From: Nitrospinaceae bacterium
Lineage (GTDB): Bacteria; Nitrospinota; Nitrospinia; Nitrospinales; Nitrospinaceae
Reading direction: 5' to 3'
Assembly: GCA_029261615.1 (NCBI GenBank)
Contig: JAJDAX010000092.1
Span: forward strand, 1 to 5,768
DNA: 5,768 bases
Positions 3,129-5,768 of the stretch are shown in pieces. Both the position numbers and the translations under genes were made by a program. How positions within the stretch are numbered: the stretch's first letter is position 1; each line of letters starts with the position of its first letter. The notes beneath the pieces were generated by a model. That model was not told the DNA's origin. It did no database searches and was given only the letters and a program-made list of their open reading frames with translations.

Positions 3129-4208
3129 TCAGGGTGAGACTGTTTCCAACGCATCAGTAAACTGATCCCGAATCTTATTGACCTCAGGGAGGGTTTTGAT
3201 GAATGCGTCCATCAATTCCGGTTGAAAATGCTTCCCTTTCTGTTCCTGCATCCAGTCAACTGCCTCATTCACATCCCAGGCTTTCTTGTAAGGCCGTTCG
3301 GAAGTAAGGGCATCGAACACATCGCAGACGGCTACGATGCGCCCCTCTATTGAGATATCTTCTCCACTCAGTCCTTCCGGATATCCCGATCCATCCCATT
3401 TCTCATGGTGATGTTGGGCGATATTGCGGGCAGCTACCATCAGAGTGGAGTCATTCCCGGACAATATCTCCGCCCCCTTGTTAACATGGGTTTTCATGAT
3501 TTCCCATTCATCGGCTTCCAGTTTGCCGGGTTTTAGCAGAATCTTATCTGGAATGCCGATCTTCCCAATGTCATGCATGGGACTGGCGTTCAGAATAAGT
3601 TGGCATTGTTTGTCTGGAAACCCCATCTGTTTCGCCAGCAAACATGAAAACTGACTCATCCGGATTACGTGGTTTCCTGTTTCGTTATCACGATATTCCC
3701 CGGCCCGACCAAGGCGATGGATAACCTCCTGCCTTGTTTCCTCCAGTTCCAGTGTCCGTGCTTTTACCTGCTCTTCCAGAATCTGGTTGAGGTTACGGTG
3801 TTTGTTATGGAGAATCCTGACTTCCAGCATATTCCGGATGCGACACACAACCTCCGATACATCCAGAGGTTTTCCCAGGAAATCGCGTGCCCCTGCGCTC
3901 AACGCACGGTGACGTATGGTCGGGTGGTCAACAGCTGTCAAAACCAGAACTGGGATATACGAATCTGTTTCCACCTCTTTGAGCTGCTTCATGACGCCAA
4001 AGCCATCAAGGTGGGGCATATTGAGGTCAAGCAACACCAGTTCTGGTTTGTGCAACTTATACAATTCTAAGACTTCAAGGGGGTTCTGGGTGGACAGAAT
4101 ATTCGTGTAACCGGCCTGAGTCAGGATTTGCTGTAGTAATAAAACATTTGAAGCCTGATCATCAACAATCAGGATTTTTGAATCCAGATACTCATTCGGG
4201 TCCATCAT
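3129..4208 (-). CDS. Two-component response regulator, REC + HD-GYP c-di-GMP phosphodiesterase (RpfG-like)
   Basis: This 359-residue cytoplasmic regulator is expected to hydrolyse cyclic di-GMP when its receiver is phosphorylated by a histidine kinase, which is not in the window. Receiver domain, about 10-128: acidic pair D16-D17, phosphoacceptor D61 in LLDLNMP, switch T91 and conserved K113. A helical linker (about 130-163) looks coiled-coil. The HD-GYP domain runs from about 165 to 340 and has H180, the H212-D213 pair in MHDIGKIGIPDKIL, H241, and the HHEKWDGSGYP motif at 267-277, followed by R290 and D296 in the IVAVCDVFDALTSERPY segment. All key residues of an active HD-GYP enzyme appear present. 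ATG 4208 has GGAG (4219-4216) seven bases upstream; the second ATG, one codon later, is less well placed. A weak sigma-54-like site lies just upstream. The architecture is that of RpfG-class regulators controlling motility or biofilm. Confidence 0.97.
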   Translation of the reverse strand: MMDPNEYLDSKILIVDDQASNVLLLQQILTQAGYTNILSTQNPLEVLELYKLHKPELVLLDLNMPHLDGFGVMKQLKEVETDSYIPVLVLTAVDHPTIRHRALSAGARDFLGKPLDVSEVVCRIRNMLEVRILHNKHRNLNQILEEQVKARTLELEETRQEVIHRLGRAGEYRDNETGNHVIRMSQFSCLLAKQMGFPDKQCQLILNASPMHDIGKIGIPDKILLKPGKLEADEWEIMKTHVNKGAEILSGNDSTLMVAARNIAQHHHEKWDGSGYPEGLSGEDISIEGRIVAVCDVFDALTSERPYKKAWDVNEAVDWMQEQKGKHFQPELMDAFIKTLPEVNKIRDQFTDALETVSP

Positions 4209-4249: not shown

Positions 4250-4361
4250 CCCTCAAGGAGTTCTATTTTCTCTTTTAACCACTCCCAAACACCCGGCCTT
4301 TTTCATTCGCTGGCCTTATTTTTTCCGACTGAAGGAGGAATTCCCTCTCGCAATGATTCCA

Positions 4362-4426
4362 ATGGGCGGTCCCAGATTTACGGGAGGGGTTGTAAATCTG
4401 GGACAGGATTCCTTCCTGCCGCCCAT
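4362..4426. repeat. Three-way-junction palindromic element
   Basis: The outer stem is ATGGGCGG (4362-4369) with CCGCCCAT (4419-4426). Inside lie two hairpins with no unpaired base between the three helices. The first is a perfect 12-bp stem, TCCCAGATTTAC (4370-4381) with GTAAATCTGGGA (4392-4403), and a ten-base loop. The second is CAGGA (4404-4408) with TCCTG (4414-4418) and a five-base loop. All pairs are Watson-Crick. A T6 run (4428-4433) follows on the plus strand, so the element could also end transcription rightward. Its form resembles REP/MITE-like palindromes or a compact structured RNA; which of these it is cannot be told from one copy. Confidence 0.7.
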
Positions 4427-4672
4427 ATTTTTTATTTCCGCCTCCCAATATTTCTAGCCTGTCGTCCAAACTTTAATTTACAGGAACCAAAATTAAGTTA
4501 AGGGAAGTATTTCTAAATATCAACCCTCAAAGGTTGATTGTTATCGCTATCACGTTTTTAAAATCCTTGCCCAAAGCCTCTTACTTCTGCAAGACTTTTT
4601 ACCTTTCAAAATACGCCTCTTGGGACACAGACCTTTCAACACATTCATGGGCCTTATAATTCATAAGTTTGA

Positions 4673-4797: not shown

Positions 4798-5019
4798 TCA
4801 GTTTATGAACGAAAAAGATTGATCGAAAACACCTGCATATTTTTGATCCAGTTTTTTCTTAACATGATTTGGGACATTACTGTTTCGTGGTCCGTGCATA
4901 AGATCGATCTGGTTTTCGTCATCGTAAAATCGTCTCCAATGCATGTCTGTCAATTTGCTACCGCTGACCACTTTTTTTACCTTCCCATTTTTGTTGAGGA
5001 TTTTCACTGGATAAATCAT
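4798..5019 (-). CDS. Small basic protein of 73 residues, unrecognised, under an apparent sigma-54 promoter
   Basis: The start is ATG 5019, chosen because AAGGAG (5032-5027 on the minus strand) stands seven bases upstream. An in-frame start at 5073 would add 18 residues but has no such site. The protein has no signal peptide and no membrane segment. It is basic (13 Lys/Arg against 7 Asp/Glu by count) and has three histidines. It opens with a beta-strand-like PVKILNKNGKVKKVV segment, followed by an acidic, aromatic stretch HWRRFYDDENQ at 27-37, then a Lys-rich helix (53-60). I do not recognise the family. A near-consensus sigma-54 promoter lies about 70 bases upstream, and the next gene upstream encodes a sigma-54 activator. 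The job is thus probably conditional, as with small adaptor or stress proteins, but that is inference. Confidence 0.72.
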   Translation of the reverse strand: MIYPVKILNKNGKVKKVVSGSKLTDMHWRRFYDDENQIDLMHGPRNSNVPNHVKKKLDQKYAGVFDQSFSFIN

Positions 5020-5088
5020 AACTCTTCTCCTTAAGTAATGACGGTTTGGGGTAATCCCAAAGCTCCTTGGCATTTCTTCTTATTACTT

Positions 5089-5105
5089 AGCAACAGGCGT
5101 GCCAA
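5089..5105 (-). promoter_or_regulatory. Sigma-54 (-24/-12) promoter of the 73-residue gene
   Basis: The minus strand reads TTGGCACGCCTGTTGCT. Against the consensus YTGGCACGRNNNTTGCW every defined position matches except the single R. The GG and GC are separated by exactly ten bases. The expected transcription start is about 5078, giving a leader of about 59 bases that contains a small hairpin and the AAGGAG site before ATG 5019. Sigma-54 promoters need an AAA+ activator, and such a gene lies directly upstream. Confidence 0.85.
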
Positions 5106-5168: not shown

Positions 5169-5231
5169 TTTTCATAAATGATCATGTTTTCATATAAAAA
5201 TTTATAATGCCCAACTACTTTTTCATATAAA
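5169..5231. promoter_or_regulatory. Repeated TTTTCATA boxes, candidate activator-binding sites
   Basis: TTTTCATATAAA occurs exactly twice (5187-5198 and 5220-5231), with starts 33 bases apart, close to three helical turns. A third, shorter copy, TTTTCATAAA, is at 5169-5178. They lie about 90-155 bases upstream of the predicted start at 5078, inside the range usual for enhancer sites of sigma-54 activators. The region is AT-rich, so chance or a bending site (for example for IHF) is possible. Confidence 0.4.
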
Positions 5232-5389: not shown

Positions 5390-5768
5390 TTAGAGAAAAT
5401 CTTTCCGTTTCAAATTAAACTTTTTCATTTTGGAACAAAGGGTCTGGCGGGGAATTCCCAGAGCGAGATGGGTTTTGGAAATATGACCATTTTGCCGAGA
5501 CAGCTCTTCAACCAAAAGATGCTTTTCAAAATGGACCAGCTTTTGCTTGAGAGTGTCTTCCGGGTCTATCCCATGCTCCAACGTCAGGGATGGGTTTTCT
5601 TTTTCCTGAAGGCGGGAGAGTCCGAGACTTTGTTCCAGCACAAAACGCTCGGCTTCATTTTTCAGTTCCCGAATATTGCCGTCCCAGTTACGGGACTTTA
5701 ATTCATCCAAATAACTGACTGAGGGTGTGGTCACCTCTAATTGAGTCCGGGCACCCGCCTGCTGCGCA
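5390..5768 (-). CDS. Sigma-54-dependent response regulator (NtrC/DctD type), C-terminal 125 residues
   Basis: The frame is open to the right edge of the window, so the receiver and most of the AAA+ domain (Walker A, GAFTGA) lie outside. The visible part starts in the end of the AAA+ domain. It includes the sensor II segment LKSRNWDGNIRELKNEAERFVL (residues 23-44 of the visible part), the equivalent of WPGNVRELxNxxER in DctD and NtrC. A linker of about 35 residues follows, then a Fis-type helix-turn-helix: LLVEELSRQNGHISKTHLALGI followed by PRQTLCSKMKKFNL, ending at TAA 5390-5392. The Asn-Glu-Ala-Glu-Arg-Phe pattern is closest to DctD-like regulators, but the signal it responds to cannot be told. 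A GTG at 5734 is internal and should not be taken as the start. The next gene on the same strand has a sigma-54 promoter, so it is a likely target. Confidence 0.94.
   Translation of the reverse strand, partial: AQQAGARTQLEVTTPSVSYLDELKSRNWDGNIRELKNEAERFVLEQSLGLSRLQEKENPSLTLEHGIDPEDTLKQKLVHFEKHLLVEELSRQNGHISKTHLALGIPRQTLCSKMKKFNLKRKDFL

Follow-up and report, generated by a model that had tools for sequence, protein, structure and literature searches.

PspF and ZraR are sigma-54 activators that have a small target gene, pspA and zraP respectively, as their neighbor. RpfG-type proteins have a REC-HD-GYP arrangement, and the Nitrospinota, from which the DNA studied here comes, include major marine nitrite oxidisers. 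The locus described below resembles PspF-pspA and ZraR-zraP in combining one enhancer-binding protein, upstream boxes, a -24/-12 promoter and a small stress or signaling output; it differs from them in that no family in the libraries searched matches the output, and different members of one lineage-limited family share the arrangement. Its downstream gene has a receiver and an HD-GYP domain as in the RpfG type but differs from that type in its linkage to genes for an NtrC-type regulator and a small protein. A small protein encoded inside a two-component regulon recalls MgrB, the small modulator of PhoQ (PMC8404706), which differs from the present protein in being a membrane protein. Regulons of the Desulfovibrio vulgaris sigma-54 regulome, hypothetical proteins included, were likewise deduced from conserved boxes and sigma-54 promoters; that organism belongs to another phylum, and the available part of the report describes no small-protein family with many activators (PMC4641369). 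In the open-licence literature we found no sigma-54 or RpoN work on Nitrospinota (the nearest papers by title concern Nitrospira or Nitrosococcus), nothing on small proteins without an assigned role in Nitrospinae and, to judge from titles, no treatment of a system of activator, sigma-54 and small protein; a word search for 'nitrospin' in the main text of a cross-phylum sigma-54 study gave no match (PMC12316311).

The DNA analyzed was a stretch of 5,768 nucleotides from a Nitrospinaceae bacterium, referred to here as the window. The features relevant to this study are as follows.

3129 to 4208, minus strand: REC-HD-GYP response regulator, with Response_reg and HD_5 matches and HDIG and GYP motifs in the translation
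4357 to 4434, minus strand: conserved structured element with a strong predicted fold (z about -4.8) and conserved loop AACCCCTCCC, placed between the small gene and the HD-GYP gene in the window and three relatives
4798 to 5019, minus strand: small gene of 73 aa plus stop, supported by the ORF, homolog lengths, dN far below dS and an AF2 model
5027 to 5032, minus strand: putative ribosome-binding site AAGGAG, from the sequence and from AAGGAG or AAGGAG-like bases in the ortholog alignment
5089 to 5105, minus strand: predicted sigma-54 -24/-12 promoter, TTGGCACGCCTGTTGCT, with a predicted transcript start at about 5078
5187 to 5198, minus strand: candidate enhancer box 2, TTTATATGAAAA, an exact 12-nt repeat conserved in three relatives
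5220 to 5231, minus strand: candidate enhancer box 1, the same exact 12-nt repeat 33 nt from box 2, conserved in three relatives
5390 to 5767, minus strand: C-terminal part (125 aa) of an NtrC-type activator with AAA_lid_14 and HTH_8, running off the window end

Read from 5105 to 5089, the promoter fits all 12 positions of TGGCACG-N4-TTGCW and keeps the GG-N10-GC spacing. Its single deviation from the longer sigma-54 consensus is a C where a purine is expected after TGGCACG. Because the six sigma-54-like sites in the window are fewer than the chance mean of 7.66, the weaker ones have no meaning; the other five listed sites have 2-3 mismatches, and only this one has none. No 12/12 site was found in 200 Markov copies of the window when both strands were scanned. 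The promoter lies on the same strand as the 73-aa ORF, about 70 nt upstream of its ATG, and the start was placed at 5078 because the -12 C is at 5090. The scan listed no sigma-70-like site near the 73-aa gene, the three in the window being at 1539, 2150, and 2993. The rpoN gene was found in all 10 relatives tested.

Upstream DNA was compared among the window and its orthologs L001, L002 (Nitrospinaceae OFTM7), and G003, the DNA of the database homologs P0001-P0004 lying outside this comparison. The aligned sequences were much diverged, and the conserved islands were the promoter, TTTGGCA(C/T)G-N4-TTGCTA or near, the ribosome-binding site and two ATATGAA boxes. The preliminary description of this DNA had reported a near-perfect -24/-12 match with exact spacing on the minus strand, placed between the 73-residue gene and the activator gene and facing the former, and had proposed looking for the 17-base motif in relatives that keep the small gene. 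Each of these points held up: the promoter, the 73-aa gene and the activator gene share one strand, and the window and all three orthologs with readable DNA retain the -24/-12 elements at 11-12 of 12 positions amid diverged sequence. We are highly confident that the sigma-54 promoter is real and serves the 73-aa gene. Transcription from it is strongly inferred, and any action assigned to the 73-aa protein is a guess.

The start codon at 5019 is supported by the four database homologs, each of which is exactly 73 aa long; the same lengths ruled out a longer reading of 91 aa from 5073. Coding differences among the four orthologs were mostly synonymous (14 synonymous and 3 non-synonymous codons between the window and L001, with dN 0.012 and dS 0.49; dS was saturated in two of the six ortholog pairs), and thus the 73-aa protein is real and constrained. 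This constraint eliminated the reading of 5019-4798 as a spurious ORF. The AF2 model (mean pLDDT 77, pTM 0.41) is confident for a beta-hairpin plus helix at residues 5-37, which a flexible linker joins to a second helix (51-60).

Scanning 54 members of the small-protein family for a curated family or solved chain gave only weak, scattered hits, the best being Pfam at E 0.011, NCBIfam at 0.0038 in one member, PHROG at 0.0011 in a set of five members, and PDB at 0.75. The description of the output as an undescribed small protein was thus borne out in the libraries searched. A profile of the 54 members retrieved 450 database proteins; among the 120 matches listed, the source names were Nitrospinota, Nitrospinae, Nitrospinaceae, Nitromaritima, and one 'bacterium AH-315-C08', and the sources label the members, where they name them at all, only 'hypothetical protein'. 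Matches occurred in 62 of 77 Nitrospinota genomes, with up to eight per genome. Outside Nitrospinota, the genome-by-genome search covered 299 Pseudomonadota genomes and gave matches in two, one being G001 and the other a weak match inside a 476-aa frame. By sequence similarity, the 73-aa gene is one member of a Nitrospinota-wide unnamed family, not a lone gene.

The G001 match is the ortholog L001, on the 4.2-kb contig JAJFIP010000389.1. This contig, whose gene order is Nitrospinaceae-like, was assigned to a MAG labelled Emcibacter, probably by misbinning. A phage origin of the small gene was considered and rejected, as the only viral relative (L003:5001-5390) is a 129-aa protein with mainly N-terminal likeness, 36% over residues 1-65, its E-value being relative to the candidates only. 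On its viral contig, this protein has nearly the same first 20 residues (MIYPVKIYDKDGKLKKVVAS), after which comes a stretch rich in Cys.

To place the promoter within the family, the 300 nt upstream of 131 unique members, in loci among the matches listed, were scanned for sigma-54 sites. Two rows with stop codons, one partial row and one at a contig end were left out, and 40 of the N-terminal-only rows were picked and the rest omitted. A site of at least 10/12 was found for 43 of the 131 members, vs 0/131 on the antisense strand of the same DNA, 1/316 for other ORFs, and 0.32% of 6550 resampled stretches. Visual sorting divided the site-bearing members into 14 groups; where a group had at least three rows, as six did, mean identity was 89-99% in the core columns and 60-84% in the flanks (one row in this comparison, L051, scores 9). 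On a tree of the 131 rows, which has few columns and many unresolved forks, the site label needed 10 changes vs a shuffled mean of 36, and none of 500 shuffles was as low.

The site was also associated with an activator gene. Ten of the 43 site-bearing members (the window, L001, L002, L022, L054, L087, L105, L118, L123, and L134, from six groups) had one directly upstream on the same strand, vs 0/88 other members (Fisher p 7e-6, kinship uncorrected). Activators were counted by similarity, and for the seven outside the window clade Pfam confirmed Sigma54_activat in every case; at L054, the gene caller had picked an overlapping opposite-strand ORF in place of the activator. For the other 33 site-bearing members no activator was found directly upstream within limited flanks, and since many members had flanks of 1.5 kb, more distant activators would have been missed. 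In L091, one of the 88 members without a site, an activator gene lay on the opposite strand at a distance of about 2 kb.

We next consider which gene the promoter serves. The REC-HD-GYP gene, probably encoding a c-di-GMP phosphodiesterase to judge from its motifs, is the next recognized gene downstream of the 73-aa gene in the window, with the same order in three relatives. It is conceivable, although we consider it unlikely, that the promoter mainly serves this gene, with a transcript that continues past the small ORF and through the structured element, the small protein then being a secondary or leader product. Consistent with this, a same-strand REC-HD-GYP gene follows the small gene in all four members of the window clade (domains checked in the window and G003), and the minus-strand list shows no terminator-like site immediately beyond 4798. 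In subfamily E, an HD-GYP gene lies downstream in three of four members (L022, L025, and L081), and in L023, L025, and L081 the following frame, which in L023 holds a receiver only, is about 28 nt away from the small gene or overlaps it; in L022 a 122-aa ORF occupies part of the 985 nt that separate the small gene from the HD-GYP gene. However, the small protein is itself strongly constrained, the window clade has a gap of about 380-840 nt between the two genes containing a conserved sigma-70-like sequence seen by eye, and the sigma-54-linked members of most other subfamilies had no recognized HD-GYP gene beside them.

The sigma-70-like sequence is TTGATA-N17-TAACTT at 4495-4523 on the minus strand, in a stretch conserved in four species and unlisted by the scan; it resembles a promoter of the sigma-70 type that could serve either the HD-GYP gene or the structured element. 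In the structured element itself, 95.8% of alignment cells pair and three pairs change on both sides; because 23 of 500 shuffles scored as high, this covariation is suggestive only. The element had no match in Rfam. Its model, run on 77 Nitrospinota genomes, found the same locus in G002 and G003 plus one weak place, a second G003 match (L190, E 6e-6) that was discarded as a C-rich run near a transposase-like ORF, by chance or repeat-derived.

Other neighborhoods bear on what the small protein may do. In G008 and G010, a same-strand activator, CheA, PAS hybrid kinase, and REC kinase precede the small gene (the G010 kinases judged by likeness to those of G008), and in L123 genes for an MCP and a globin-containing CheA lie downstream of the small gene. 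Because three groups lie in signaling clusters, a small adaptor or modulator is the best guess; because the neighbors of other groups, assigned by eye, are different (a CDGSH-like protein with glycosyltransferases, an HMA-like protein, and TPR-like proteins), its probability stays low. A role for the 73-aa protein as adaptor in c-di-GMP or chemosensory signaling, guessed from neighborhood, is thus put forward tentatively. As a separate observation, the CheA at L170:7406-10015 has a bacterial-type globin domain (Bac_globin, E 4.8e-15) flanked by its Hpt and dimerisation domains.

The activator gene ends with its stop at 5390, on the same strand as the 73-aa gene and about 370 nt before its start codon. 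The lid and HTH_8 in the window, and the full-length L001 and G003 orthologs with their Response_reg, Sigma54_activat, and HTH_8 domains, agree with the earlier assignment to the NtrC/DctD type; unlike the classical type, which has GAFTGA, the L001 and G003 translations have GSFTGA in the activator loop. The activator is adjacent to the small gene in the window, L001, and L002, where its end is 899 nt upstream of the small gene at the contig end. In G003 it is about 6.6 kb away, the intervening DNA holding an iron-uptake cassette (L191:7418 to end with L094:37-4502) that encodes an ECF sigma factor, FecR, a TonB-dependent receptor, and a PepSY protein; the boxes and promoter stay with the small gene despite this cassette. 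Also in G003, the activator gene overlaps by 4 nt a kinase gene encoding REC, HisKA, and HATPase domains, with a GAF match below the curated cut-off; in L001 a kinase tail precedes the regulator gene.

The two ATATGAA boxes, which the preliminary description had not mentioned, are a candidate enhancer. Boxes of NtrC-type proteins usually lie roughly 100-150 nt upstream of the start point. The present boxes, at about -115 and -147 relative to the predicted start and spaced 33 nt apart in the window and relatives (32 nt in G003), would fit such an upstream enhancer (UAS). A strict pattern for the pair occurred once in G003 and once in G001, each time at the small-gene promoter, and gave no hits in G002, G004, or G010, the G002 boxes being a variant. 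A relaxed pattern occurred at 14 places in 13 of 77 Nitrospinota genomes vs 4 control places; of the three places inspected, those in G002 and G003, the sole G003 hit and one of the two G002 hits were at the small-gene promoter.

Taken together, these features are consistent with the following scheme. A cytosolic REC-GAF-type histidine kinase would phosphorylate the NtrC-type regulator encoded beside its gene. The phosphorylated activator would bind the boxes at 5187-5198 and 5220-5231, reach sigma-54 RNA polymerase at 5089-5105 through looping, and use ATP to open the promoter, so that transcription from near 5078 would yield the 73-aa protein. Within that signaling network, this protein might then serve as a small adaptor or modulator, and the REC-HD-GYP phosphodiesterase from the next gene would be its closest candidate partner. 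Sequence, conservation, gene order, and coding constraint are direct observations, to which phosphorylation, looping, and activation would be added from established sigma-54 biology. That the adjacent activator acts on the promoter through the boxes is likely; for the full chain from phosphorelay through activator and sigma-54 to a small signaling adaptor, our confidence is moderate.

The neighboring activator might instead serve other targets, such as a che cluster, with the sigma-54-dependent promoter depending on another protein; we regard this as improbable, slightly more so than transcription aimed mainly at the HD-GYP gene. A paralogous activator (55% in G002, 54% in G003) is followed by two ATATGAA boxes (G002) or one (G003), a sigma-54 site (11/12 and 10/12, respectively), and cheA, so that cross-talk is possible. 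A cheA-like ORF was next to the activator in 6 of 10 loci (L224, L225, L227, L228, L229, and L232), boxes plus a sigma-54 site being present only in L224 and L225 among these 10; in L227, L228, L229, and L232, where the activator directly precedes the cheA-like ORF, neither boxes nor a sigma-54 site was found within 1.5 kb. In addition, the G004 genome has an activator with 73% identity yet lacks an ortholog of the small gene, and the 1.5 kb downstream of that activator showed no boxes. Activator-like hits at E <= 0.001 were numerous, with 57 in G003 and 48 in G002, many of them receiver-only. Against this reading, the link between activator and small gene recurs in six subfamilies, and the window-clade activator is beside the small gene in three of the loci and about 6.6 kb off in the fourth. 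The dedicated switch proposed from the initial reading is likely; the cheA boxes in G002 and G003 and the G004 activator without the gene speak against exclusivity.

The perfect sigma-54 pattern gave 33 hits in 12 Nitrospinaceae genomes vs 3 for the reversed control pattern. Although the latter show that chance matches do occur at genome scale, this excess, retention of the site in three relatives, and enrichment of sites across the small-protein family make it extremely improbable that the motif at 5105-5089 is a functionless chance match. In 20 of the 30 readable loci with a perfect site, a small ORF of one of four kinds followed: the 73-aa family (2), about 132 aa (6), about 89-99 aa (8), or 76-77 aa (4). 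These 20 loci represent a few families across several genomes and are not independent cases. No Pfam match was found for the other three families, one member of each being searched.

A recurring unit of activator, sigma-54, and small protein is a testable entry into Nitrospinota signaling, and the sigma-54 link gives regulatory context to proteins otherwise known as 'hypothetical protein'. On a broader and more doubtful reading, Nitrospinota may route much of their sigma-54 output via lineage-specific small proteins, the 73-aa family and at least three others (about 77, 92, and 132 aa), which would be interchangeable adaptors joining chemosensory, two-component, and c-di-GMP circuits. Examples of perfect sigma-54 sites before the three other unnamed small families are L198, L203, and L201, with similar cases among L194-L223.
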